Origin: a virus
DNA length: 54,348 nt
IMG/VR virus record: IMGVR_UViG_3300017963_000320
Coordinates: 1-54,348 of that record
Reading direction: 5' to 3' (one strand)
Below are positions 3,287-52,396 of this stretch, in pieces. The notes under the pieces are model-generated. The model ran no database searches, was not told the DNA's origin, and worked only from the letters and a program-made list of their open reading frames with translations. A program made the translations under genes and the position numbers. How positions within the stretch are numbered: position 1 is the stretch's first letter; every line of letters starts with the position of its first letter.

Positions 3287-4003
3287 ATGTCAGATGAATT
3301 TGAGAAAATGCCTGTGCCATTCACACAGGTCAGCAACACTGTTTTGAATGATCCATCCCTTTCATGGAAAGCAAAAGGTGTCTTTGCTTATGTTTACATG
3401 AAGCCTGAAGGATGGACATTTTCAGCAAAGAACATGTCAAAGAATTCAAAGGATTCTATTGATGCAACACAATCAGGAATCAGGGAACTGATTGATGCAG
3501 GCTATCTTACGAAGCAAAAGCAACCTGATGGAAGAATAAAATATACTGCACACCATGAGCCAAAACAGGAAAATCCCTTTTTGGCTGAACCCAAAACAGG
3601 AAAATCCCTTAAAGGGAAAAAGCCTGAAAGGGAAAATCCCTGCCACAATATAAATAAAGATATTTATAGAAATAAAAATGAAGCAAATGTTTTTGCTGTG
3701 CCTTTTCAGAAAGAACATGATCCTGAAATATACAGAACAGGAATCAGGGTTCTTGCACACTTGAACAAAAAGACAGGAAGGAAATTCAAAGAACCAGCAG
3801 GAAACCTTCTTGAAAGGATTGCAGAAGGATTGTCATTTGATGATGCTGTGAAGATCATTGACAACATGTGTTCTGAATGGAAAGGAACAGACTTTGAAAA
3901 GCACCTGCAACCAAACACCCTTTTCAAAAAAGAAAAATATGATGGATATTTGAACAGATCAGTTGAAGAACCTGAAACAGAATTCAAAATAAAGGTTGAT
4001 TGA
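3287..4003 (+). CDS. Replication initiator-like protein (N-terminal winged helix, C-terminal Phg_2220_C-type domain)
   Basis: A 238-residue protein. Residues 1-85 look like a winged helix-turn-helix DNA-binding domain (PSLSWKAKGVFAYVYMKPEG, then ATQSGIRELIDAGYLTK). Residues about 85-130 are a low-complexity linker encoded by short DNA repeats. Residues 145-225 match the conserved phage C-terminal domain of replication initiators: VLAHLNKKTGRKF, GLSFDDAVKIIDNMCSEW, LQPNTLF. Just downstream lies a DnaB-type helicase, giving a lambda O/P-like arrangement in which the initiator binds origin repeats inside its own gene and loads the helicase. The start at 3287 follows GACGGAGGC. A role in origin recognition is inferred from domain order and the iterons. 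Confidence 0.8.
   Translation: MSDEFEKMPVPFTQVSNTVLNDPSLSWKAKGVFAYVYMKPEGWTFSAKNMSKNSKDSIDATQSGIRELIDAGYLTKQKQPDGRIKYTAHHEPKQENPFLAEPKTGKSLKGKKPERENPCHNINKDIYRNKNEANVFAVPFQKEHDPEIYRTGIRVLAHLNKKTGRKFKEPAGNLLERIAEGLSFDDAVKIIDNMCSEWKGTDFEKHLQPNTLFKKEKYDGYLNRSVEEPETEFKIKVD
3560..3641. repeat. Iteron cluster, candidate replication origin inside the initiator gene
   Basis: A 20-bp sequence (3560-3579) recurs exactly at 3591-3610, and a third, partial copy shares the GGAAAATCCCT core at 3631-3641. The core starts lie at 3568, 3599 and 3631, spaced 31-32 bp or three helical turns. An A+T-rich stretch follows (3648-3680). This mirrors the lambda O gene, where origin iterons sit in the linker-coding part of the initiator. 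Confidence 0.6.
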
Positions 4004-4225
4004 ATGAGAACAGAATGTTTGACATGTCAGGATAAACTGTCACCTTCAGAAGCTGTGTTCTGTGAACCATGCAGAACTGCACAAGACCTGAAGCAGTTGA
4101 ATAACCTGAAGAACGATCTCACATGGATCATTGCAGATGCATGCAAAGACAATGATCTTGAATGTGTAAAAAGGGCAAGAGTAGAACTTGCAGAAGTGAA
4201 TGAAATGATTGAAGAATTGATCTAA
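4004..4225 (+). CDS. Small zinc-finger-like protein
   Basis: A 73-residue unknown protein with two CxxC pairs near the N-terminus (ECLTCQ and FCEPC), which together could bind one zinc ion, followed by two acidic helices. It begins right at the stop of the initiator (TGATTGAATGAG) and precedes the helicase by 16 bases, so it belongs to the replication operon. It may be a helicase-loading or primase-related accessory factor, but that rests on position only. Confidence 0.7.
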   Translation: MRTECLTCQDKLSPSEAVFCEPCRTAQDLKQLNNLKNDLTWIIADACKDNDLECVKRARVELAEVNEMIEELI

Positions 4226-4241
4226 TAAAGGAGAATCACAA

Positions 4242-5564
4242 ATGTACGAACAAGCAATCATCAGTGCCTTGATGAATGAACCAATGACCCGACCACGAAT
4301 ATTTGCAAAGATATTTGAAAAGGATTTCAACAATAGCCTTGCAAAGGATGCATTCACAACCATCAAACAATTGTATGAAGATGGAACACCAATTGATGAT
4401 GATGAAACCATGACAAGACTTTATGTGAAATATGCATCACTGTTTGAAAACCTTCAACCGATTCACTTTTCAGATGCAATCAATGGTTTGATATACAAAA
4501 GCATCACAGGAAATTGCAGGGAACATGTTCAGTCTTTGCTGGATGACATCAACAATCAGAAAGCAACACTTCCTGAAATACAGGAAAGGATCAAAGACAC
4601 AATTGAAAAGTCAGTTGATTACAGGGTGAACACAAACAAACTTGGAATTGATGAAGTTTCAAGAAAGGCTTATGAAATGATCACCCGACAGTTGAATGTT
4701 GTTCCTTTTGGAATCAGGGAAATTGATAACAAGGCTTGCATGGAACTTGGCACTGTTTCAATCATTGGTGCTCGACCTCGTGTTGGAAAGACAAGCCTTG
4801 CTTTATCCTGCATCAGGAACCAATTGAAAATGCGACAGGGTGTTGGAATTTGGTGTGGTGAAATGTCACCTGAAGATTTGTTCCTGCGAATAATTTCTCA
4901 AGAAATCAATATTCCTTTTCTGAACCTGAAATTGAATTACAAATACCTGTCCGATCTTGAGAAAGAAAAATTTCATCAAGCAAGAAAAGAACTTTCAGAA
5001 ATGAACCTGCACATCAAGACAGGATCAGCAACCACAACAGAACTGAAAGCATGGGCAACAGACATCTGCAAAACAGATGGTGTCAATGTTGTGTGGTGTG
5101 ATTATCTGCAAAGGATGCAACCTAGATTCAACAATGCTTCAAGAAGGGAACAGGTCAGTGATATTTCAAGGGAAATCCACAAGATCGCACAGGAACTGAA
5201 TGTGCCGTTTGCTGTCCTTGCACAGTTGAACAGGCAAGCAGAAAATGCATTCCCTGAAATTGACCACCTTGAAGAATGTTCAAGCATTGAACAGGATGCA
5301 CACCTTGTTTTGTTGATGGACAGACCAAAGGTGAACAAGCCTAATGTAATTAAGCGTGGATACTATGCAGAAACATTTGATCCTGATACAGGAACAGAAA
5401 AGATCAAGCTCGATGAAATGATGGAAGATCAAGACCTGACTGCAATTGTAGTTGCCAAAAACAGGAATGGTTCAACCTGTGTCAGGTTTCTGCAATTTTA
5501 TCCTGAAGCAATGAAGTTTGGGAACCCCTTGTTTGATTTCAAAAGGAAAGGGGAAATGAATTAA
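4242..5564 (+). CDS. dnaB: Replicative DNA helicase, DnaB-type
   Basis: A 440-residue RecA-fold helicase that would unwind DNA at the phage fork as a hexamer. The N-terminal domain (1-125) resembles the DnaB helical collar. The motor shows a Walker A motif IGARPRVGKTS at about residues 174-184, GEMSPEDLFLRIIS, a Walker B-like strand NVVWCDYLQRM, the motif QLNRQAEN, and the DnaB-typical SSIEQDAHLVLLMDR. The end KNRNGSTCVRFLQF is also characteristic. It starts at ATG 4242 behind AAAGGAGAATC. It follows the initiator and a small zinc protein, so the three probably form the replication operon. No phage DNA polymerase is visible, so the host polymerase is presumably used. Confidence 0.92.
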   Translation: MYEQAIISALMNEPMTRPRIFAKIFEKDFNNSLAKDAFTTIKQLYEDGTPIDDDETMTRLYVKYASLFENLQPIHFSDAINGLIYKSITGNCREHVQSLLDDINNQKATLPEIQERIKDTIEKSVDYRVNTNKLGIDEVSRKAYEMITRQLNVVPFGIREIDNKACMELGTVSIIGARPRVGKTSLALSCIRNQLKMRQGVGIWCGEMSPEDLFLRIISQEINIPFLNLKLNYKYLSDLEKEKFHQARKELSEMNLHIKTGSATTTELKAWATDICKTDGVNVVWCDYLQRMQPRFNNASRREQVSDISREIHKIAQELNVPFAVLAQLNRQAENAFPEIDHLEECSSIEQDAHLVLLMDRPKVNKPNVIKRGYYAETFDPDTGTEKIKLDEMMEDQDLTAIVVAKNRNGSTCVRFLQFYPEAMKFGNPLFDFKRKGEMN

Positions 5565-7901: not shown

Positions 7902-8702
7902 ATGTCATCACCTATAACATGGACAGACAGCACAAGAAAACTTCATGAACTGCTTCCAAATCCAAGAAACCCAAAAATCCTGACTGAAAAACAAGGTCAA
8001 GGCTTGCAGGTGTCTTTGAAAAAATTTGGTTTTGCAATTCCTGTTTTGATTTCACCATCAAACAAAATCCTTGATGGACACCAAAGAACAAAACTTTTGT
8101 CAGTCATGGAAGAATACGGTGCAGAAGCAGAAATTCCTGTCAGGGTTTCAAGCAGGGAATTCACAGATGAAGAAACAAAGGAATTCATTGTCAGACTGTC
8201 AAAAAATCAAGCAGGCTTTGATTTTGACATGCTTGCAACAGATTATGAAGAAACAGACCTGATCAATTTCGGCTTTGAAGAATGGGAACTTTCAATTGGT
8301 GGTGAAGGTGAAGGTGAAGGTGAAGGTGAAGGTGGTGCTTCAGATGATTACAGCAAGAAGGTTGATTCACCTGTATACGAACCAACAGGAAACAAGCCTG
8401 CACTTTCAGAACTTTGCAGTGATGAAAAGACAAATGAATTGATTGAAGAAATTCAGAATGCAGAACTTCCTGATGATGAAAAAGAATTCCTGATGAAGTG
8501 TGCAACAAGACACAGGGTTTTCAACTACGAAAAGATTGCAGAATATTATTCACATTCATCAAAGGAAGTGCAAGAACTGATGGAAAAGTCTGCACTTGTT
8601 ATCATTGACTTTGAACAAGCAATTGAACAGGGGTACGTCAAGATGTCTGATGCAATCATTGATCAATTCAAAGAAGACTACCCTGAAGAAGTGCCACAAT
8701 GA
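7902..8702 (+). CDS. ParB-like nuclease-domain protein
   Basis: A 266-residue protein. Residues 10-110 match the ParB/Srx N-terminal fold: LHELLPNPRNPKILTE, KFGFAIPVLISPSNKILDGHQRTKL and a later IVRLSKNQAG. Residues 130-141 are a Gly-Glu linker encoded by five tandem GGTGAA hexamers (8301-8330). The C-terminal 100 residues are helical with no recognised domain. Phages often encode such ParB proteins just upstream of the terminase, frequently with DNA-modification enzymes; some are nucleases or ATP/CTP-binding switches. The next gene overlaps by four bases and encodes a probable DNA glycosyltransferase, so the pair may act together on phage DNA. Biochemical activity is unknown. Confidence 0.8.
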   Translation: MSSPITWTDSTRKLHELLPNPRNPKILTEKQGQGLQVSLKKFGFAIPVLISPSNKILDGHQRTKLLSVMEEYGAEAEIPVRVSSREFTDEETKEFIVRLSKNQAGFDFDMLATDYEETDLINFGFEEWELSIGGEGEGEGEGEGGASDDYSKKVDSPVYEPTGNKPALSELCSDEKTNELIEEIQNAELPDDEKEFLMKCATRHRVFNYEKIAEYYSHSSKEVQELMEKSALVIIDFEQAIEQGYVKMSDAIIDQFKEDYPEEVPQ

Positions 8703-9547
8703 AGAACAAAGATTTTGCAGTTTTTATCCTGACACATGGCAGACCGAATCTTCTGATCACAGAAAAAACCCTGCGTGATTGTGGATATACAGGAAAAATT
8801 TATTTCATCATAGATGATGAAGACAGCAGTGCAGATGTTTATTTTGAAAAATGGGGTGATGGTGTTGTTCAATTCAACAAGAAAGCAATTGCAGACAAGA
8901 CAGATGAAGGTGACAACTTCAATGACAGAAGAACAATCACACATGCAAGAAATGCATCATTTGAAATTGCAGAAAAACTTGGTGTGAAATATTGGATTCA
9001 ACTTGATGACGATTATCAGGCTTTTGAATATAGGCTTTATCAATTTGGAAACCCCAAAAAGGTGAAGTCACTTGATGCAATCTTTGATGCCTTGATTGAT
9101 TTTTACAAGTCGATCAATGCAAAAAGCATTGCTTGCAGTCAGGGCGGTGATTGGATTGGTGGGAAAGACAATGCAAATGTGAAAAAGAAACTGATCAGGA
9201 AGTGCATGAATTCTTTCATCTGCACCAATGACAGACCATTCAAGTTTGTTGGCAGGATGAATGAAGATGTCAACACATATGCAACACTTGGTTCAAGGGG
9301 TGATTTGTTTTTCACAGTTCTGCTGATTTCAATTGTTCAAAGACAGACACAATCACAGGAAGGTGGAATCACTGACATGTATCTTGATTACGGAACCTAT
9401 GTCAAGGCATTCACAACAGTGATGTTCAATCCATCAGCAACAAAGATTGCATTGATTGGAACAACACAGAAAAGAATCCATCACAACATTTCATGGAATA
9501 ATACTGTTCCGAAAATATTGCATGAAAAACACAAAAAGGAGAATTGA
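8699..9547 (+). CDS. TET-associated-type glycosyltransferase (TAGT-like), possible DNA-base glycosyltransferase
   Basis: A 282-residue protein of a GT-A-like fold. It opens FAVFILTHGRPN, then GYTGKIYFIIDDED, FNDRRTITHARNASFEIAEKLG and IQLDDDYQAF, whose acidic triplet would bind the nucleotide-sugar metal. These blocks match the phage family named for its association with TET/JBP base oxidases, predicted to add sugars to hydroxymethylated bases. I see no hydroxymethylase or TET oxidase in this genome, so the acceptor is open: a host-made base, a protein or a glycan are all possible. It overlaps the ParB-like gene by four bases (ATGA). Confidence 0.72.
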   Translation: MKNKDFAVFILTHGRPNLLITEKTLRDCGYTGKIYFIIDDEDSSADVYFEKWGDGVVQFNKKAIADKTDEGDNFNDRRTITHARNASFEIAEKLGVKYWIQLDDDYQAFEYRLYQFGNPKKVKSLDAIFDALIDFYKSINAKSIACSQGGDWIGGKDNANVKKKLIRKCMNSFICTNDRPFKFVGRMNEDVNTYATLGSRGDLFFTVLLISIVQRQTQSQEGGITDMYLDYGTYVKAFTTVMFNPSATKIALIGTTQKRIHHNISWNNTVPKILHEKHKKEN

Positions 9548-12384: not shown

Positions 12385-12413
12385 TGCCGTCAGGGGAATC
12401 AATCCTGACGGCA
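12385..12413 (+). promoter_or_regulatory. Intergenic hairpin after terL
   Basis: TGCCGTCAGG (12385-12394) pairs perfectly with CCTGACGGCA (12404-12413) around a nine-base loop. An AAGGAGAATC ribosome site follows at once. No T tract is present, so it looks like an RNA processing or stability element rather than a terminator. Confidence 0.6.
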
Positions 12414-12576: not shown

Positions 12577-12696
12577 CTTTTTCCCTTTAGTTTTCTTCTA
12601 TTTTTACCCCTTATTTTAGCCTCAAAATCAAAAAAAAATGGCTTTTTTTAATTTTTTTTATATAAAATAGTTTGAAAAGTTATAGATAAAATCTAT
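12577..12696 (+). promoter_or_regulatory. Promoter/leader module, copy 1 (upstream of the amidoligase)
   Basis: The stretch 12569-12725 has no gene. It carries CCCTTTAGTTTTCTTC, then TTAGCCTCAAAA (12616-12627), an A+T-rich tract, and TTG-N7-ATAGATAAAATCTAT ending at 12696. The same elements in the same order appear near 21234-21343 and 51593-51723, each time before a strong AAAGGAGAATC-ATG. I infer a phage-specific promoter with a regulated leader. Confidence 0.6.
12682..12696. promoter_or_regulatory. ATAGAT-AAA-ATCTAT palindrome (operator or promoter core)
   Basis: A perfect 6+6 inverted repeat with a three-base centre, ending 29 bases before the ATG at 12726. The identical 15-mer also occurs at 21329 and 51709, and its reverse complement at 29954. 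Confidence 0.7.
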
Positions 12697-12725
12697 CTTT
12701 CTTTAACAACAAAGGAGAATCCAAA

Positions 12726-13658
12726 ATGACAACTGAATCAACCATCAAGCAAGACACTGAAGCAATGAACTACACATTCGGAATTGAATTTGAAACACAG
12801 GTTCTGAATTCAACAAGACTTCCTGTTCGTGTCAGTTACAGTGATGCACAGCAGTGTCCTTATGCAATTGTAAATGGTGAAAGAGTTGATGCACCTTCAA
12901 TCAATGGTCAATTTGCTAAAGCAATGTGGGATGTCACCATTCACCCACGTGGAAACAGATTCGGTGTTGAATGGGTGACACCTGTTCTGAAAGGTCAAGA
13001 AGGTCTTGACTATGTTGAAGCATTGATTGAATGGATTGTCAAAATTGGTGGATCAGTGAACAAAAATTGTGGTCTTCACATTCATGTTGGAATTGATTCA
13101 ATCAATGAAGGAAGAACACCTTCACAAGTTTTGAAATGGTTCAAGAAATTTTCATACATCTGCAAAGACCTTGAGACAGCAATCTATGGACAAACAGGAA
13201 CTCGCAGAGATCAGGCACAATGGTGTTCACCTTTGAACAGCAGTGACAAAATGAAGTTTGACAATGCAAACAATGCAAGGGGTTTTGTTGGTCACAGTGA
13301 TGACAAATACAAAATGGTAAACTTTCAGAATGTTGGAAATCACAAGAACACAATTGAATTCAGAGCCTTTGCAGGAACCCTGAACAAGATCAAAGTTTTC
13401 CACCATCTTGCAACTGCACTTGGCATCTGCTCAATTGCCAAAACCAAACGCACAGGAAAATGGATTGCATCTGATGGTTCTGCAACAAAAGAACTTGACA
13501 AAATGTATAAAAAACTTGAATGGTTTGAATGCATTCAGAACAATGAAAAATATGCAAACAAAATTCCTTATGGAATGTTTGGAACCCTTCTTGATAACAT
13601 GAAGGACATGAAGAAAGAAGCAAAAAGACTTGCCAAGAAATATGACAACCGTTTCTAA
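12726..13658 (+). CDS. Amidoligase (COOH-NH2 ligase, glutamine synthetase-like fold)
   Basis: A 310-residue protein of the Amidoligase_2 family, whose members join a carboxyl group to an amine using ATP in a glutamine synthetase-like fold. Core motifs are present: YTFGIEFETQ near residue 17 (Glu metal ligands), FGVEWVTPVL, NCGLHIHVGID near residue 117 (the GLH-H motif) and NTIEFRAFAGTL near residue 205. The next gene encodes a gamma-glutamylcyclotransferase-like protein, a pairing noted before for this family in comparative genomics. Together they may add and remove a glutamyl or peptide tag on a protein, cell-wall peptide or small amine; the substrate is unknown. It begins a transcription block behind leader module 1 and AAAGGAGAATC. 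Confidence 0.85.
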   Translation: MTTESTIKQDTEAMNYTFGIEFETQVLNSTRLPVRVSYSDAQQCPYAIVNGERVDAPSINGQFAKAMWDVTIHPRGNRFGVEWVTPVLKGQEGLDYVEALIEWIVKIGGSVNKNCGLHIHVGIDSINEGRTPSQVLKWFKKFSYICKDLETAIYGQTGTRRDQAQWCSPLNSSDKMKFDNANNARGFVGHSDDKYKMVNFQNVGNHKNTIEFRAFAGTLNKIKVFHHLATALGICSIAKTKRTGKWIASDGSATKELDKMYKKLEWFECIQNNEKYANKIPYGMFGTLLDNMKDMKKEAKRLAKKYDNRF

Positions 13659-13670
13659 AAAACAAAAACA

Positions 13671-13694
13671 AGGGGTGTCAATCAAGACACCCCT
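13671..13694 (+). promoter_or_regulatory. Intergenic hairpin between amidoligase and cyclotransferase
   Basis: AGGGGTGTC (13671-13679) pairs perfectly with GACACCCCT (13686-13694) around AATCAA. The AAAGGAGAATC site of the next gene begins two bases later. No T tract follows. Confidence 0.65.
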
Positions 13695-13710
13695 GAAAGG
13701 AGAATCCAAA

Positions 13711-14220
13711 ATGAAAAACCTATACTTCGCATACGGAAGCAACATGCACCCTGAAACAATGGAAGCAAGATCAAGGGGTTTTGCAAAGCCACTTGGACAT
13801 GCAGTTCTTGATGATTACAGATTGTCAGAAAGGCTGTTTGCAGACATTGATTTCAGTGAAGGTGATCAGGTGCATGGATTGCTGTGGGAAATTGATGACA
13901 GAACCCTTGCAAGCCTTGACATCTGTGAAGGTGTTGCAGGTGGTCTTTATGAAAGATATGAAGTGCCTGTCACATTGAAGGACAACACCTGTCTTGTTGC
14001 CATTGTTTATGAAATGACATATCAGGCAAAGCAGGCAAGAATGGAATCAATCTTTCCATTGATCTATGCAATTGAATGTGCCATTGGTGCATTTCAGCAC
14101 AATGTTCCTGTTGATCACCTGTATCAAAGCAGGCTTGCAGAAGATGCAATGAAAGCAAAGGAATTCATCAGAAACAAAAAGACAACTCGCAAAAGCATAA
14201 ACTACAAAAGGAAAAAATAA
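13711..14220 (+). CDS. Gamma-glutamylcyclotransferase-like protein (AIG2/GGCT fold)
   Basis: A 169-residue protein with the fold's signature LYFAYGSNM (residues 4-12), then VHGLLWEIDD, LDICEGVAGGLYERYEVPV and a hydrophobic C-terminal helix. Cellular members release 5-oxoproline from gamma-glutamyl compounds. Placed directly after an amidoligase, it probably edits or removes what that enzyme attaches, or matures the product. The start at 13711 is set by AAAGGAGAATCC; a longer frame from 13630 overlaps the amidoligase and has no ribosome site. It ends three bases before a DUF932 gene. Confidence 0.85.
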   Translation: MKNLYFAYGSNMHPETMEARSRGFAKPLGHAVLDDYRLSERLFADIDFSEGDQVHGLLWEIDDRTLASLDICEGVAGGLYERYEVPVTLKDNTCLVAIVYEMTYQAKQARMESIFPLIYAIECAIGAFQHNVPVDHLYQSRLAEDAMKAKEFIRNKKTTRKSINYKRKK

Positions 14221-14222
14221 TC

Positions 14223-15191
14223 ATGGCACATGAAATCATGGAAAATGACAAGGGTGCTGTTGGATTTGTCCAGCAGTACGGGCAGACATGGCACAAGATG
14301 GAACAATACAAGCACTTTGAAGAATGCATTCCATTTGAATATGTGGAACACATTCTTTCATGGCAGGTGGAAAAGAAACCATTGTTTGTTGCAGGTGCTG
14401 ATGGAACCTTTCAGAAGCTGGAAAAGAAATACGCCCTTGCAAGGCAAGACACAGGTGAAATTCTTTATGCACCTGTTACTGATGTGTATTCAATTTATCA
14501 GAACAGTGAAATGATGAAGTTCATTTATGAAGCAATCATCAAACCTTTTTCAATGGAACTTGAATCAGCAGGTTCTTTGAAGAATGGCAGACATGTGTTT
14601 GCAAACATCATCCTGATGGAAGAAACAATTGATGGTGACATTTCACCAACAAAGACAAGACTGATGATTGACAACACACATGGCGCAAAGGCACTGTCAA
14701 CATGTTTGCATCAGACAAGGATTGTCTGCAACAATACTTTGAGAATGGCAAAGGCACAGGGAACAGCCAACAGCACATTCAAAAAGTTCAGACATTCAAA
14801 GTCAATGATCAACATCATTGAAGAATATGCAGTTGACCTGACTGACCTGATTGCAGAATCACGAAAAACATATCAGGCAATGAATGACCTTGCATCAGAA
14901 AAGATCAATGAAAAATATCAAGATCAATTCTTTGACAATTTTCTTCAGGTGGATAAACTTAAAGGAAGGGCAAAAACAATTGCACAAAGTCAGATGCAGG
15001 GAATCAAAACCTTGTATGATTCAAAAGAAGACCTGAAACCTTTGCCTGATACAAGGTACAAACTTTTGAATGCTGTGACCGATTACTACGATCACAAATA
15101 CAAGAAGAAAGAAGCATCAATCATTGATGCTGTAAAAGGCAAAAGGGATGAAATGAAACAGCAGGCTTTATCAGTCTTGACAAATTGCTAA
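14223..15191 (+). CDS. DUF932 phage/plasmid-like protein (TIGR03299 type)
   Basis: A 322-residue protein typical in length and motifs for DUF932: an N-terminal GQTWHKMEQY, KKYALARQDTGEILY, the central GRHVFANIIL and DNTHGAKALSTCLHQTRIVCNNTL. The family is widespread in phages and plasmids, is often highly expressed early, and has no established function. It sits three bases after the cyclotransferase with AAAAGGAAAAA upstream, so it shares the amidoligase operon. A hairpin downstream may end or process that message. Confidence 0.82.
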   Translation: MAHEIMENDKGAVGFVQQYGQTWHKMEQYKHFEECIPFEYVEHILSWQVEKKPLFVAGADGTFQKLEKKYALARQDTGEILYAPVTDVYSIYQNSEMMKFIYEAIIKPFSMELESAGSLKNGRHVFANIILMEETIDGDISPTKTRLMIDNTHGAKALSTCLHQTRIVCNNTLRMAKAQGTANSTFKKFRHSKSMINIIEEYAVDLTDLIAESRKTYQAMNDLASEKINEKYQDQFFDNFLQVDKLKGRAKTIAQSQMQGIKTLYDSKEDLKPLPDTRYKLLNAVTDYYDHKYKKKEASIIDAVKGKRDEMKQQALSVLTNC

Positions 15192-18443: not shown

Positions 18444-18707
18444 ATGAAAGCATTGCAAAACATTTTGAAAGCATCACAGATGATGCGAACAGACCTTGAC
18501 ATCTTCAAGCAGGATTGCATCACATCAATTCATGTTCACTACTACACACCACAACAACCAAGAAGTTTTGTCAAAGGGTATGAAAGTGCAAGAGCAACAA
18601 TTGAATTTCAGAAAGGTGACATGAAAGGAGAAAAACAAATCACAGGTGAAAACATTCCTGAAGTTTTTGAACAGATCAAAGAATTCATTGAAGGATTGGA
18701 ATTATGA
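18444..18707 (+). CDS. Hypothetical protein upstream of the APS kinase
   Basis: An 87-residue protein with a helical start, a central beta hairpin (SIHVHYYTPQQPRSF) and a C-terminal acidic helix. The start at 18444 is fixed by AAAAGGAGAATC; the frame is open further upstream, over the previous gene, without a ribosome site. It overlaps the APS kinase by four bases, so the two are translationally coupled, but nothing links it to sulfur metabolism. Confidence 0.68.
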   Translation: MKALQNILKASQMMRTDLDIFKQDCITSIHVHYYTPQQPRSFVKGYESARATIEFQKGDMKGEKQITGENIPEVFEQIKEFIEGLEL

Positions 18708-19234
18708 AGGGAATCACATATTGGATGACAGGTCTTTCAGGTGCAGGAAAGACAACCATTGCAGAACTTGCAGTGAATCAAATGCAGAAGGAAAAGATTC
18801 CTGTTGTTTGGCTTGATGGTGACATGATGCGAAAAGGCTTGTGTCATGATTTAGGATTCAGCAATGATGACAGGACAGAAAACATCAGAAGGATTGCACA
18901 TGTTGCAAAGCAAATCAATGACAATGGAATTGATGTCATTGTCAGCATGATCACACCCCGATATTCACAAAGGCAACTTGCAAACATCATCCTGTTGAAA
19001 TCTTTCAGGGAAGTTTATATCAGCACACCTTTGACTGTCTGTGAAGATCGTGACCCAAAAGGATTGTATAAGAAAGCAAGGAAAGGTGAAATTGAAAACT
19101 TCACAGGGATTGGATCAATCTATGAAAACCCACAAAACCCTTCACTGCAACTGACACATTTCATGACAGCACATGAATCAGCAAGAAGACTTTTCAAATA
19201 CATAAAACAAGAAGGTGCAGAAAATGGAATTTGA
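18704..19234 (+). CDS. cysC: Adenylylsulfate (APS) kinase
   Basis: A 176-residue, full-length APS kinase, which phosphorylates adenosine 5'-phosphosulfate to make PAPS, the universal donor for sulfotransferases. Diagnostic motifs are all present: P-loop TGLSGAGKTT (residues 9-18), VVWLDGD (35-40), GLCHDLGFSNDDRTENIRR, VSMITPRYSQR, PLTVCEDRDPKGLYKKAR and FTGIGSIYENP. The RDPKGLY and DLGFS blocks separate it from generic P-loop kinases. No ATP sulfurylase is visible, so the host would supply APS. Phages more often carry genes for reducing PAPS; making PAPS together with two sulfotransferase-like proteins (37499-38170, 50154-50783) points to sulfation. It overlaps the upstream gene by four bases. 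Confidence 0.92.
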   Translation: MKGITYWMTGLSGAGKTTIAELAVNQMQKEKIPVVWLDGDMMRKGLCHDLGFSNDDRTENIRRIAHVAKQINDNGIDVIVSMITPRYSQRQLANIILLKSFREVYISTPLTVCEDRDPKGLYKKARKGEIENFTGIGSIYENPQNPSLQLTHFMTAHESARRLFKYIKQEGAENGI

Positions 19235-21233: not shown

Positions 21234-21343
21234 CCTTTTCCCTTTAGTTTTCTTCAGGAAAAAGGGAAAAATTTAGCCTCAAAACATTATTTTTTATAAA
21301 AAAAATAGTGGAAAGGGGTTGAAAAAGCATAGATAAAATCTAT
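21234..21343 (+). promoter_or_regulatory. Promoter/leader module, copy 2
   Basis: It carries CCCTTTAGTTTTCTTC, TTAGCCTCAAAA (21273-21284), an A+T tract and TTG-N7-ATAGATAAAATCTAT, in the same order as copies near 12577 and 51593. In this copy TTTTCCCTTT also pairs with AAAGGGAAAA (21260-21271 region) to make a ten-bp stem. Confidence 0.6.
21329..21343. promoter_or_regulatory. ATAGAT-AAA-ATCTAT palindrome (operator or promoter core)
   Basis: Identical 15-mer to the copies at 12682 and 51709. It ends 36 bases before the ATG at 21380, with AAAGGAGAATTC between. Confidence 0.7.
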
Positions 21344-29616: not shown

Positions 29617-29957
29617 AAGACCATTGCACAAAATTCCCTGATCACCTTTTTGGAATTGACATTTCAGAATGCTGTGAATATCACGACATATGCTATGCAC
29701 TTGGTGGTGGCGAACAGGAAAGGTTTCTGTCTGACATTGTTCTGAAAAGGTGTGTGTTCAATAAGTTCATGAAAAAGAAAGTGAACTTTGCAGGGGATCA
29801 TTGGTCTGCTTGGTTCCTTTGGTGGTATGTGTTCATGACCTTGTTTGTTTACAGCACAAAAGCAGGAAGGTGGATTGCAGGAAAGATTGTTTCAAACCTT
29901 ATGTTTGCAGGTGTCAGACTGTTTGGAAAGAAATATTTTAACTACCATTCACAATAG
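29613..29957 (+). CDS. Phospholipase A2-like membrane protein
   Basis: A 114-residue protein whose N-terminus holds the phospholipase A2 active-site signature: ECCEYHDICYALGG with Cys20-Cys21, catalytic His24, calcium-ligand Asp25, Cys27 and Tyr28, plus a second acidic residue at Asp41 (FLSDIVLKRC). The usual glycine-rich calcium loop before the CC pair is absent or replaced by FPDHLFGID. Residues 60-105 are strongly hydrophobic (SAWFLWWYVFMTLFVY) and end FAGVRLFGKKYF, a tail seen in related phage and bacterial proteins. It could damage lipid bilayers during entry or lysis. It lies among head genes and overlaps the previous one by four bases. Confidence 0.72.
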   Translation: MKDHCTKFPDHLFGIDISECCEYHDICYALGGGEQERFLSDIVLKRCVFNKFMKKKVNFAGDHWSAWFLWWYVFMTLFVYSTKAGRWIAGKIVSNLMFAGVRLFGKKYFNYHSQ

Positions 29958-29968
29958 ATTTTATCTAT
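29954..29968. promoter_or_regulatory. ATAGAT-TTT-ATCTAT palindrome overlapping a stop codon
   Basis: Exact reverse complement of the ATAGATAAAATCTAT sites. It covers the TAG stop of the phospholipase-like gene and opens a 112-bp gene-free gap (29958-30069) that contains a second, degenerate copy at its other end. Confidence 0.6.
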
Positions 29969-34436: not shown

Positions 34437-35148
34437 AGCACAGGAGACAGTGAAAGGTCTTTGGTCTGTTCCTAAAGCATGGAAAGATGAAAGCTGTTTC
34501 ATCATTGGTGGTGGATATTCTGCAAAGAAACTTGACCTGTCACTTTTGAAACCCTTCAATGTCATTGGTTGCAATGATGCATATATCTATGGCGAAGAAA
34601 TTGTTGACATCTGCTATTTTGGCGATCTTGGTTGGTACGATATTCATTGGACTGATGAAGTCAGCTACGATGACATTGGAACATTCAAAGGATTGAAGCA
34701 TTTCAAAAATCTGATTGTCACAAACTGCCATGACAAGTTTCTTGAAAAAGATCAGGAAACACCTGTCAATCCAAAAGTCAAAGTTCTGAAACGAATGGGA
34801 AAGGGAATCAACACCATTCCATCATGTGTTGCATGGAATGGAAACACAGGATCATCTGCAATCAGCCTTGCCTGTCATTTAGGTGTCAAAAGAATCTATC
34901 TTCTTGGTTTTGATATGTGCCTGACACAGGAAGGAAGCAAGCAGGTTGCAAATTGGCATCAGAATTTGAAGAATCCACCAAACAAAGATGTGTACGTCAA
35001 ATGGCTTGAATACTTCAAGCAGATCAAAGAAACTGCATCCATGATTGGACTTGAAATTCTGAATTGCAGTAAAGTTTCAAGAATCAAAGAATTCAAATTT
35101 TGTGAATATGAAAAGGCAATTGAAGCCGAAAGGAAAAACCTGAAATGA
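34399..35148 (+). CDS. Sialyltransferase/DUF115-like glycosyltransferase
   Basis: A 249-residue protein. Residues about 25-35 read CFIIGGGYSAKKLDLSLL, then NVIGCNDAY, VDICYFGDLGWY, a conserved NTGSSAISLACHLGVKRIYL and LLGFDMC. This is the layout of DUF115 and CST-type (GT42-like) proteins that bind a CMP- or other nucleotide-linked sugar. It is the first of three genes for building or modifying a glycan (34399-38170). It starts at one of three in-frame ATGs (34399, 34402, 34405) behind AAGGA, overlapping the previous gene by about 38 bases, and overlaps the next by four. The acceptor is unknown. Confidence 0.72.
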   Translation: MMMTATQTHLFHEAQETVKGLWSVPKAWKDESCFIIGGGYSAKKLDLSLLKPFNVIGCNDAYIYGEEIVDICYFGDLGWYDIHWTDEVSYDDIGTFKGLKHFKNLIVTNCHDKFLEKDQETPVNPKVKVLKRMGKGINTIPSCVAWNGNTGSSAISLACHLGVKRIYLLGFDMCLTQEGSKQVANWHQNLKNPPNKDVYVKWLEYFKQIKETASMIGLEILNCSKVSRIKEFKFCEYEKAIEAERKNLK

Positions 35149-37502
35149 AACAACTGATCAACATGTGCATTTGCGGTGGCTCAAAAGTCAGACCTGCAAC
35201 CATGAAAGGAATTGATGTGTTGCAGTGCATTTCATGTGGTGTCATCAGACAATCTGTTCACATGACAGAAGCAGAACTCGATGAATGGTATGAAAAACAA
35301 TATCATGATGGCATTTTTTCACATGACTATGATCATGACATAAAAATTGCCAATTTAAGACTGAAAGAATACGGTCTGAAGAAAAACACCACCATCCTTG
35401 ACATTGGCTGTGGAAATGGTGCATTTGTCGATGCAAGCCGAAAGAAAGGGATTCAGGCATACGGTTGTGAAGTTGGTGATGGTGCAAGTCAAAGCAAATT
35501 CACTTATCAGGGGAAAGTTGAAGACATCCATTTCCCGACAGACCATTTTGACACAGTTGTGATCCATGATGTCCTTGAACACCTTGTCAATCCTTTGCAG
35601 TTCTGCATTGAAGTCAGAAGAATATTGAAACAGGGTGGAACATTCATCATTGACTTTCCTGATTTCTTTGTTCCTGAAGGCGATCATCATTGGAAAGAAA
35701 TTGAACACCTGTGGATGCTGAATGAAGAACAGGTTGTCAATATCCTTGTTGGACTTGGTTTCAATTTGAAGGAAATCAAAAAACCCATTCCTTCAAAACT
35801 AGTTTTCTATGCAGAAGCACCAACAGAACAAAGACAATCAATCATCATTCCGCCGGGCATTGGCGACACATGGTGGTCGTTGTTAAAGCTGAAAAGTTTC
35901 TGTGAATCAAATCAAATTGGAATTCCTGATGTTTACATCATGTCAGACAATGGAAAGAAAGACAGGTCAATTGACTTTGTGAAACGAGCACCATTCCTGA
36001 ATGCAAAAGGATATATGAAATATCCAAACAAAGCACAGGATGAAGTTTGGCGTGAAGCATACATGCTTGATGGAAGAACTGTTTTCACAAGAAAAGATTT
36101 GCCTGTTGATGCAGACTATTTCCTTGCTTACAATGGTGTTTTAAGGGCAGGGAAAAACATTGATGAAGTTGACACCTTGTATCAATCAGATTGGCTTTAC
36201 GATCAATTTATAAGCCTTGAAGAAAGATGGTACGGTGAAAACTGTGTCAAGGAATGGGGTGAATACCTGATTGCATATTTTGTTGATCATGGCATGTATG
36301 GAAAGCATTGGATCAAAGAATTCAGCAAAGCACACATCAAGAAAACACTTGAACTGTTGCACAAGCAGACAGGGAAAAAGATTGTCCTTGTTGGTTCTGA
36401 ATGGGATGACAATGCATTCACAAAAGACCTTGCAAAAGGGTTTGACTTTGTGATCAACATGATTGGCAAAACAGAACTTGAAGAATTCATTGGAATGATC
36501 CGATATTCATCAGGGATGATTGGTTTTCCATCAGGTGCAACTTTCATGGGTGTGAAGTTCAAAAAGCCTGTCATGTGCATTTGGAACAAATACTTCACAA
36601 CGAAATTTTGGTGGAATGCCTGCCCGAAAGAAAGCTGGAACAATTGGTATGGCATCATTGATTCAAGACATGCAAAGCCTGACACAGTTGTGAATGGTTT
36701 CATGAAGTTGATTGATGAAAACATTGAAGACACAAAGGAAATTCCTGTGAAAAACAGCAAAAAACCCCAAAAAACAGCCAAAAAAGCCGAAAAAACTGCA
36801 TCCAAAACAGGTGAAAAGAAAACTAAAAGGGATCAGAAAGAGCCTTTCTTTGTGTCAAAAGGTGCAAAATTGGTTGCATGTGTGCTGAAATCAGGTGGTG
36901 ATTTTGACAGAACCTACGTTTCAAGGCTTGAAAAGAACATCAAGAAGCACACAAACTATCCGATCAAACTTGTCTGCCTGTCAGACTTGGAAAACACAGG
37001 TGCAGATGAAACAATCAAACTGAAACACAATTGGCAAAGTTGGTGGTCAAAGATTGAACTGTTCAGACCTGATGTTTTCAATGAAGAACCTGTTGTGTAT
37101 TTTGATCTCGACACTTTGGTGCTGACAAACATTGATGGATTGATTGGTTCAAAACATTCATTCACAATGCTTGAAGCATTCAACAAAAAAAGAAATCCAT
37201 TTGCATCAGGTGTCATGGCATGGTCAGGAAACTATTCAGAAATTTATACTGAATTCAAAAAGAATTTCAGACAGGTCATTGAAAACAGAACAACCAATGA
37301 TCAGAAATTCATCCACAAAGTTTTGACAGAAGAATACGGCATCATTCCTGAAAGGGTGCAGAAGTTTGTGAATGTTGCAAGTTTCAAAAGAGAATGCAAT
37401 CATCCCACAGGCGCACCAAAGGGAACAAACATTGTCTGCTTTCATGGCAAACCAAGACCGATTGAAGTCACCCTTCCGTGGGTTCAGGAGGCATGGGCAT
37501 GA
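35145..37502 (+). CDS. Three-part methyltransferase / GT9-like / GT8-like glycosyltransferase fusion
   Basis: A 785-residue multidomain enzyme. Residues 8-32 hold a CxC...CxxC zinc knuckle. Residues 75-230 are a SAM methyltransferase (TTILDIGCGNGAF near 81-93, TVVIHDVLEHLVNP, RILKQGGTFIIDFPDFF). Residues 232-520 resemble a GT9/heptosyltransferase (IIIPPGIGDTWWSLLKLK, KKIVLVGSEWDD, MIGFPSGATFMGVKFKKPV). A Lys-rich linker (about 534-568) leads to a GT-A domain (574-785) with an acidic YFDLDTLVL motif near 651, SGVMAWSGNY and a closing CFHGKPRP. It would build and methylate a short glycan. Neighbours are a sugar transferase and a sulfotransferase. It overlaps both. Confidence 0.82.
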   Translation: MKQLINMCICGGSKVRPATMKGIDVLQCISCGVIRQSVHMTEAELDEWYEKQYHDGIFSHDYDHDIKIANLRLKEYGLKKNTTILDIGCGNGAFVDASRKKGIQAYGCEVGDGASQSKFTYQGKVEDIHFPTDHFDTVVIHDVLEHLVNPLQFCIEVRRILKQGGTFIIDFPDFFVPEGDHHWKEIEHLWMLNEEQVVNILVGLGFNLKEIKKPIPSKLVFYAEAPTEQRQSIIIPPGIGDTWWSLLKLKSFCESNQIGIPDVYIMSDNGKKDRSIDFVKRAPFLNAKGYMKYPNKAQDEVWREAYMLDGRTVFTRKDLPVDADYFLAYNGVLRAGKNIDEVDTLYQSDWLYDQFISLEERWYGENCVKEWGEYLIAYFVDHGMYGKHWIKEFSKAHIKKTLELLHKQTGKKIVLVGSEWDDNAFTKDLAKGFDFVINMIGKTELEEFIGMIRYSSGMIGFPSGATFMGVKFKKPVMCIWNKYFTTKFWWNACPKESWNNWYGIIDSRHAKPDTVVNGFMKLIDENIEDTKEIPVKNSKKPQKTAKKAEKTASKTGEKKTKRDQKEPFFVSKGAKLVACVLKSGGDFDRTYVSRLEKNIKKHTNYPIKLVCLSDLENTGADETIKLKHNWQSWWSKIELFRPDVFNEEPVVYFDLDTLVLTNIDGLIGSKHSFTMLEAFNKKRNPFASGVMAWSGNYSEIYTEFKKNFRQVIENRTTNDQKFIHKVLTEEYGIIPERVQKFVNVASFKRECNHPTGAPKGTNIVCFHGKPRPIEVTLPWVQEAWA

Positions 37503-38170
37503 AGTCTGAAGATGGAATTTTGATCACAGGAATTGCAAGAAGTGGAACAAGTGCAACAGCAGGAAGCATTGACATCTGTGGTGCATATGGTGGAAAAACT
37601 GCTGGTGGTACAAGGTACAATCAGAAAGGCTTTTTTGAAAACACTGAAATCAGAAATGCATTGATCAAACCATTTCTTCTTGCAAACAATTGTGATCCAT
37701 TAGGGCAGAACCCATTGCCTGACATTGAAAAACTTGATGACTTTCCTGAACTTCAGGAGAAATTTTTTCAAGTCATGCAACGTCATGGATACAAACAGGG
37801 GAAATGGTATTACAAGGGCGCAAAGATGTGTTTGATTTGGACTGTCATTCACAATGCATTCCCGAATGCAAAGTGGGTGATTGTCAGAAGGAATGATGAA
37901 GACATCATCAATTCATGTTTGAAAACAGGCTTCATGCGAAAGAACAAAGGGCGTGAAGGTTGGCAATGGTGGATTGATGAACACAAGAAAAGGTTTCAGG
38001 AAATGCACACAGCAGGATTGCAGATCAAAGAAATTTATCCTGCAAAAATGGCTGAAGGTGATTTCACAGAAATGCAGGAATGCATTGAATGGTTAGGTTT
38101 GGAATGGAAAGAAAAAGAAGTCAGGAAGTTTATTGATCCACAATTATACAGCAGGACAAAAGTAAAATGA
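37499..38170 (+). CDS. Sulfotransferase-like protein 1
   Basis: A 223-residue P-loop protein. ILITGIARSGTSAT (residues 7-20) matches the 5'-phosphosulfate loop of PAPS-dependent sulfotransferases, and KWVIVRRNDEDIINS (about 125-139) matches their 3'-phosphate-binding strand and helix. A C-terminal QECIEWLGLEW is also typical. It would move sulfate from PAPS to a hydroxyl or amine. It directly follows two glycosyltransferase genes, so a phage- or host-derived glycan is the likely acceptor, and the phage encodes an APS kinase to make PAPS. The start at 37499 lies seven bases after AGGAGG; ATG 37493 is too close to it. A generic nucleotide kinase is less likely. Confidence 0.8.
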   Translation: MKSEDGILITGIARSGTSATAGSIDICGAYGGKTAGGTRYNQKGFFENTEIRNALIKPFLLANNCDPLGQNPLPDIEKLDDFPELQEKFFQVMQRHGYKQGKWYYKGAKMCLIWTVIHNAFPNAKWVIVRRNDEDIINSCLKTGFMRKNKGREGWQWWIDEHKKRFQEMHTAGLQIKEIYPAKMAEGDFTEMQECIEWLGLEWKEKEVRKFIDPQLYSRTKVK

Positions 38171-51606: not shown

Positions 51607-51723
51607 TTTTCTTCTTGTTTTTAATTTATTTATAAAAAAATAAAGGGAAATTTTGAGGCTAATTTGCAAAAAAAACCATTTTTTTTTCAAATATTCACTT
51701 GCAAATGTATAGATAAAATCTAT
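51593..51723 (+). promoter_or_regulatory. Promoter/leader module, copy 3
   Basis: Carries CCCTTTAGTTTTCTTC, then an A+T tract, then TTTTGAGGCTAA (51651-51662), the reverse complement of the TTAGCCTCAAAA in the other two copies, and finally ATAGATAAAATCTAT. TTTCCCTTTA pairs with TAAAGGGAAA (about 51641-51650), a ten-bp stem with a long loop. It leads into the early gene block at 51754. Confidence 0.62.
51709..51723. promoter_or_regulatory. ATAGAT-AAA-ATCTAT palindrome (operator or promoter core)
   Basis: Identical to the 15-mers at 12682 and 21329. Ends 30 bases before ATG 51754. A TTG lies a few bases upstream of the site in all three. Confidence 0.7.
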
Positions 51724-52374: not shown

Positions 52375-52396
52375 GGTGCAGGGGAAACCCTGCACC
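52375..52396 (+). promoter_or_regulatory. Perfect nine-bp hairpin with GAAA tetraloop
   Basis: GGTGCAGGG (52375-52383) pairs fully with CCCTGCACC (52388-52396) around GAAA, a stable GNRA tetraloop. AAAGGAGAATC follows four bases later. No T tract, so it is likely an RNA-stability or processing element. Confidence 0.7.

Follow-up and report, generated by a model that had tools for sequence, protein, structure and literature searches.

We analyzed a 54,348-base virus contig over its whole length (referred to here as the window). It carries genes for a terminase large subunit, portal, major capsid, tail, and helicase proteins and thus has a clear phage context. Two adjacent plus-strand genes lie at 12726..13658 (ATG at 12726 to TAA at 13658; 310 amino acids) and 13711..14220 (ATG at 13711 to TAA at 14220; 169 amino acids), separated by a gap of 52 bases. 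The first encodes an Amidoligase_2 protein, a carboxylate-amine ligase of the GS/GCS fold, and the second encodes a YGSN-type γ-glutamylcyclotransferase (GGCT). Neither frame is due to chance, since the matches to PF12224 (55.9 bits against a gathering cut-off of 22; E value of 7.5e-15) and PF06094 (GGACT/AIG2; 52 bits against a cut-off of 22.8; E value of 1.3e-13) exceed the Pfam cut-offs and the two products match phrog_2443 and phrog_2520, respectively. The second protein also scored over the cut-off of PF13772, and the amidoligase was the one PF12224 match in the record. An initial annotation of this DNA had described the same two genes and quoted the motifs GIEFE, GLHIHVG, and IEFRAFAGTL for the first protein and YFAYGSNM and EGVAGGLYERY for the second; we found all of them.

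Upstream of the amidoligase gene is a single palindromic element, ATAGATAAAATCTAT (12682..12696, plus strand), with TTGAAA just before it. As a perfect 15-mer this element has four copies in the window, at 12682-12696, 21329-21343, and 51709-51723 on the plus strand and at 29954-29968 on the minus strand. Allowing up to 3 mismatches gave 17 matches against 1.3 expected. The copies have TTGAAA or TTGCAAA ahead of them, and three stand shortly before a ribosome site, making the element a candidate phage promoter or operator for the operon. A sigma-70 scan of the window returned sites no more numerous than in shuffled sequence. The initial annotation had assigned both genes to one promoter module, and this held insofar as a single candidate element precedes the first gene and none was found between the two; the promoter role itself only fits.

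The amidoligase ribosome-binding site, GGAGAAT (12714..12720, plus strand), lies inside AAAGGAGAATCC and belongs to the AGGAGAAT motif that precedes many genes in the window. Between the two genes we confirmed the predicted perfect hairpin (13671..13694, plus strand), in which AGGGGTGTC and GACACCCCT form 9 bp around the 6-nt loop AATCAA (about -17.6 kcal/mol). It is followed by AAAGGAGAATCC, with the equally predicted GGCT ribosome-binding site (GGAGAAT; 13699..13705, plus strand; AGGAGAAT motif) 4 nt past the hairpin. Hairpins with 9 or more pairs and 6 or more G/C occurred three times in the window (12385-12413, 13671-13694, and 52375-52396) against 0.2 expected in shuffles. Since all three are 1 to 6 nt upstream of a AGGAGAAT ribosome site, this kind of intercistronic spacer is one that the phage uses repeatedly. 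The hairpin at 13671-13694 has no T run on its 3' side on the plus strand and is therefore not an obvious terminator for that strand; together with the ribosome site, it is a possible mRNA-processing or translation-control element.

A third gene, encoding a DUF932/TIGR03299 protein (14223..15191, plus strand; PF06067, 3e-29; TIGR03299, 1e-44), begins 2 bases past the GGCT stop codon and is probably on the same transcript as the third gene of the operon. Apart from the window, 6 of 30 related records with window-like amidoligases (L098, L102, L103, L105, L120, and L127) also had a DUF932 (TIGR03299) gene scoring above the cut-off, no more than about 5 kb away from the amidoligase. Elsewhere in the window, an APS kinase (18704-19234; PF01583, 4.3e-56) and a sulfotransferase-like protein (37478-38170; PF13469, 4.1e-6) could, judging from their families, make and use PAPS for sulfation, and a 785-amino-acid protein with a methyltransferase-type N terminus and glycosyltransferase-like regions (GT9-like, phrog_1962) is encoded at 35145-37502 in the virion gene region. 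Across positions 1 to 54348, observed/expected ratios were 0.25 for TpA and 0.26 for CpG, with an excess of CA (1.62) and TG (1.72), and the CpG deficit extended along the whole record.

The amidoligase and cyclotransferase proteins

The AlphaFold model of the amidoligase (pLDDT of 88.5, pTM of 0.90) matched 1tt4, YbdK, GCS, GS, and Dop structures with Z scores of up to 13.7, including 13.1 for YbdK, 12.7 for plant GCL, about 12.5 for GS, and 12.1 for Dop. The 50 PDB matches listed comprised GS, GCS, YbdK-type enzymes, GmaS, PafA/Dop, and bifunctional glutathione synthetases with a GCS domain. In an alignment of 60 phage homologs, E21, E23, D69, E82, C115, G116, H118, N199, E211, and R213 were invariant and H120 was nearly so. 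We take the ExE, E, HxH, and ExR motifs, from knowledge of the family, to correspond to GS E129/E131, E212, H269/H271, and E357/R359. The model thus places the protein in the GS/γ-glutamylcysteine ligase fold with its catalytic motif residues kept, and the GS-like active site on which the initial annotation had made its reading depend was found as GS-like motifs on a GS/GCS-fold model.

The likeness to YbdK, γ-glutamylcysteine ligase, and glutamine synthetase covers the fold over residues 14-309 and the ExE, HxH, and ExR motifs, but identity in the structural alignments is only 8 to 16%. Characterized enzymes of the GS/GCS-fold superfamily target the γ-carboxylate of glutamate or the terminal Glu/Gln of Pup. 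GS-fold likeness leaves the amidoligase substrate unfixed, and the substrate is not predictable from these relatives. The protein is divergent, with at most 35 to 36% identity to its nearest amidoligases, and neither it nor the GGCT yielded a close relative when used singly to scan viral contigs. Because alignments spanning the full range of distant relatives were too diverse for searching, sub-alignments of closer sequences served as queries. The amidoligase alignment also gave weak PDB-sequence profile matches to plant lectin B chains over one short stretch, which we rejected as chance. Neither protein matched any PADLOC model (2023 library).

For the second protein, a phmmer search retrieved human GGCT (2pn7; E value of 1.3e-7), with E73 aligned to the catalytic E98 of the human enzyme, a residue that is mutated in 3cry and 2rbh (to Gln in 3cry). 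The model (pLDDT of 88.6) had 3cry as its best PDB match (E value of 1.3e-11), ahead of γ-glutamylamine cyclotransferase and ChaC2. The YGSN loop occupies residues 8 to 11, and among 24 aligned divergent phage GGCT sequences, G9 and E73 were the only invariant residues; we propose from the alignments that E73 is the catalytic residue. The human match, the model, and the invariance of E73 together identify a GGCT that keeps its catalytic residue and belongs to the YGSN type, not the YGTL type. It shares the YGSN motif, catalytic Glu, and fold with human γ-glutamylcyclotransferase (C7orf24; 2pn7 and 3cry) but differs from it in sequence (about 26% identity) and by the long C-terminal helix of the phage model. 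The substrates of GGCT are small γ-glutamyl compounds; enzymes of the γ-glutamyl-lysine type are GGACT (YGTL). GGCTs have been described as acting on many γ-glutamyl peptides (PMC7340319).

These structural comparisons bear on the suggestion of the initial annotation that the pair tags proteins or peptides, in which case the amidoligase would add glutamate or a peptide tag to proteins of the host or the phage and GGCT would trim it. Pup is attached to lysines and removed from them by GS-fold enzymes, PafA and Dop, and Dop is among the structural matches at the Z score given above. However, PafA and Dop are no closer to the amidoligase than are GS, GCS, and YbdK, no candidate tag peptide was identified, and the window GGCT is of the YGSN type instead of the YGTL type associated with γ-glutamyl-lysine. 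We consider tagging distinctly improbable.

Linkage and partner exchange in related loci

The loci compared were the best 80 per query, which share ancestry, and the records are metagenomic contigs that may be fragments. With a Heliusvirales-type query, GGCT was present in 74 of the best 80 viral loci, nearly always directly downstream of the amidoligase and on the same strand; three of the six loci lacking it were cut close to the amidoligase. YGSN-type GGCTs were adjacent to the amidoligase in 80 of 86 cases, and 540 of the first 600 candidate stretches encoded a relative of the Heliusvirales query. The two genes were close together in Christensenellales, Faecalimonas, Monoglobales, and Arthrobacter phage records, and in PV036453 the next-door gene annotated as hypothetical is a GGCT by sequence. 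In Monoglobales phage CHVD 5762, one amidoligase is followed by two GGCT genes (L009:6219-6680, annotated as hypothetical, and L009:6989-7435). The linkage in related phages on which the initial annotation had staked its reading was thus found many times over, and both enzyme identities and their pairing are borne out by Pfam, the fold models, and conserved linkage.

The partner of the amidoligase is exchanged in part of these phages. Counting partners within 4 kb at loci with at least 2.5 kb of flanking sequence on each side, we found a YGSN-type GGCT in 54 of 101 viral loci, a class-II glutamine amidotransferase (GATase) without a YGSN protein in 38, both in none, and neither in 9, with cyclotransferase loop types assigned by a simple motif and GATases recognized by PF13522 and a class-II profile requiring an N-terminal MC. 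Eighty loci from bacterial genomes, mostly Bacillota and with a terminase gene recognized in 13, likewise held a YGSN protein (58 loci) or a GATase (11 loci) and in no case both. The loci nearest to the window amidoligase mostly carry a class-II GATase in place of GGCT. The window protein itself groups with the amidoligases of the GATase-bearing loci L090, L092, and L093, and yet the window and L094 carry a YGSN GGCT. No GATase was found in the window record with PF13522 or the phage GATase profile, although the record may be a fragment.

A strict exclusivity of GGCT and GATase proved wrong, since seven well-flanked loci have both, and the cyclotransferase there is of the YGTL type. We therefore limit the exclusion rule to the YGSN type, because YGTL-type proteins co-occur with GATase both in these seven loci and in Arthrobacter phage Laroye. 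In some records, another GGCT-fold gene lies over 4 kb from the amidoligase. On the amidoligase tree, the partner exchange amounts to about five changes, which provide three to four independent contrasts, all in the expected direction (sign test, P of 0.125 to 0.5). With so few independent contrasts, the exchange is suggestive rather than statistically secured. We found no published description of this exchange in the literature accessible to us, in which Iyer et al. 2009 is represented by papers that cite it.

The Heliusvirales-like loci also contained 43 amidoligase-like paralogs of about 255 amino acids in 43 loci, usually upstream of the active ligase (for example, L007:5122-5883, L009:4306-5019, and L010:5110-5871). 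None of the three catalytic motifs that we searched for occurred in 35 of the 43 paralogs, and all three occurred in 69 of 75 full ligases. From its sequence, the second amidoligase-like protein looks like a pseudoenzyme partner. Passages of two reports (PMC11253131 and PMC11318856) mention two amidoligases before a GGCT and do not state there that one is dead.

Because a TET-associated glycosyltransferase (TAGT) gene (8699-9547; PF20691, 1.4e-33) and a ParB-like gene lie 3 to 5 kb upstream of the amidoligase in the window, we considered whether the pair helps to decorate modified DNA bases. A TAGT gene stands directly before the amidoligase in L124 and L125, but its occurrence is sporadic (6 of 31 window-like records, the window included) and most amidoligase loci are without it, and we regard a contribution to DNA hypermodification as very improbable indeed. 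The ParB-like and TAGT genes adjoin each other (7902-9547) and may form a DNA base glycosylation module. Several environmental phages, L108 and L127 among them, have a gene for a PAPS-reductase-like protein and then a second ParB-like gene just ahead of the amidoligase (L127:2761-3822 and 3839-4354, for example).

Proposed γ-glutamyl attachment and removal

We propose that the operon is probably an accessory phage module that makes and cleaves a γ-glutamyl amide. The amidoligase would use ATP to activate the γ-carboxylate of glutamate, either free or peptide-terminal, as an acyl phosphate and would then join the activated γ-glutamyl group to an amine. GGCT would act on the same substrate, removing the γ-glutamyl group by intramolecular cyclization to yield 5-oxoproline and the free amine. 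The class-II GATase that fills the GGCT slot in related phages would presumably remove the group by hydrolysis. We favor an attach/remove module because GGCT and GATase, either of which pairs with the ligase, both belong to types that cleave γ-glutamyl amides. A GATase-type cleavage is exemplified by yeast Dug2p-Dug3p, which converts glutathione to glutamate and Cys-Gly (PMC6508711). Alternatively, the GATase could supply ammonia to the ligase. Published accounts, in the portions available, report no enzymatic test of any phage amidoligase-GGCT pair.

The alternatives that we weighed mostly name acceptors and fit γ-glutamyl chemistry, so the likelihoods given to them are not exclusive of the main proposal. 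One of them is a metabolic role, in which GGCT would break down γ-glutamyl amino acids or glutathione, while the γ-glutamyl compounds made by the amidoligase would feed nitrogen or amino acid metabolism during infection. Such genes are called auxiliary metabolic genes in the part of the Phage-ZRK32 report available (PMC10945688), phrog_2520 is filed as moron/AMG, and the nearest solved relative of the cyclotransferase is human GGCT. However, an enzyme that degrades glutathione on its own would not be expected to keep so close to an amidoligase gene, and in the same orientation, in phages that have diverged widely. Were the ligase and the cyclotransferase to act on a single metabolite, the result would be a futile cycle unless they were separated by time or substrate. 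We consider this role unlikely. Overall, the initial interpretation is partly supported.

More tentatively, the attach/remove proposal can be extended to YGSN GGCT and class-II GATase as interchangeable erasers in one widespread phage γ-glutamyl system, in which each amidoligase would work with one of them only and the dead paralog, where present (roughly half of the Heliusvirales-like loci), would be the second subunit of the active ligase. If so, phages would possess a dedicated attach/remove chemistry acting on a substrate yet to be discovered. Should GGCT and GATase prove to be alternative erasers, the range of possible chemistry would shrink to a γ-glutamyl amide, and a small two-gene system like that of the window would be well suited to finding the substrate. 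Hundreds of phage contigs contain amidoligase cassettes. These have appeared in annotations for over ten years, yet the portions of the literature available give no substrate for them.

Relation to known phage cassettes

The amidoligase-GGCT pair is a recurrent, annotated phage cassette that is already known. As far as the available portions of these reports go, it is annotated in Arthrobacter phages of cluster AL, Laroye and Salgado (AIG2 as gp97 and amidoligase as gp98; PMC5513430), and in Pseudoalteromonas phages, and it occurs in the Tn6164 island (PMC3485107), the C. clostridioforme LM41 φ13 prophage (PMC11318856), the Terrisporobacter TPDSL_ph1 prophage (PMC11253131), Phage-ZRK32 (PMC10945688), and LUZ24-like phages (PMC3890496). 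The window pair thus adds a divergent example to a known type and differs from the larger cassettes in that no GATase was found with it.

Like the window, the cassettes of RIO-1-, phiEco32-, and LUZ24-like phages (PMC5498523 and PMC3890496) contain amidoligase and γ-glutamyl cyclotransferase genes. Unlike the window, they comprise seven genes, described for RIO-1-like phages as a peptidoglycan modification cassette (PMC5498523, in the part available), with a second amidoligase, an ATP-grasp enzyme, and a GATase, none of which was found in our window searches. For ATP-grasp enzymes, these covered three families without a match (PF13535, PF08443, and PF14397). A search with PF14395 had no positive control.

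The peptidoglycan γ-D-Glu linkage is a plausible target for the pair, and as a first guess by analogy, the amine acceptor may possibly be a wall peptide or precursor, with a small host metabolite or a protein as the alternatives. In a fuller version of the wall idea, the pair would bring about superinfection exclusion: by changing γ-linked bonds in the peptides of peptidoglycan or in its precursors, it would make the infected cell resistant to other phages. In the passages available, a wall role was proposed for phage cassettes of amidoligase, ATP-grasp, GATase, and GGCT genes with reference to Iyer et al. and Hardies 2013 (PMC5498523) and was taken up again for prophages that carry amidoligases and GGCT (PMC11253131 and PMC11318856); Iyer et al. 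are cited for wall modification against superinfecting phages in these three reports and in PMC10580990, a proposal different from the attachment and trimming of amide-linked tags that the initial annotation credited to them. However, our searches of the window found none of the rest of the cassette (no GATase and no match to the three ATP-grasp families), one amidoligase and one YGSN GGCT would be insufficient alone for the three linkages described in the wall proposal, and the passages available report no experimental test of it. We therefore rate superinfection exclusion through the wall as possible but doubtful.

The closest known systems include the amidoligase-GGCT (AIG2) modules of Firmicutes phages and prophages (LM41 φ13, TPDSL_ph1, Tn6164, and "Ca. 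Heliusvirales" such as PV036436), in which the amidoligase and GGCT genes are likewise adjacent on one strand, belong to PHROG families 2443 and 2520 where stated, and are often near terminase genes. Their amidoligases differ from that of the window in sequence (about 20 to 25% identity where sequences were aligned), and about half of the Heliusvirales-like loci have the extra motif-less paralog, none of which was found in the window. Arthrobacter phages Laroye and Salgado of cluster AL also have adjacent GGCT-fold and amidoligase genes, but there the gene order is reversed, the cyclotransferase is of the YGTL type, and a GATase follows.
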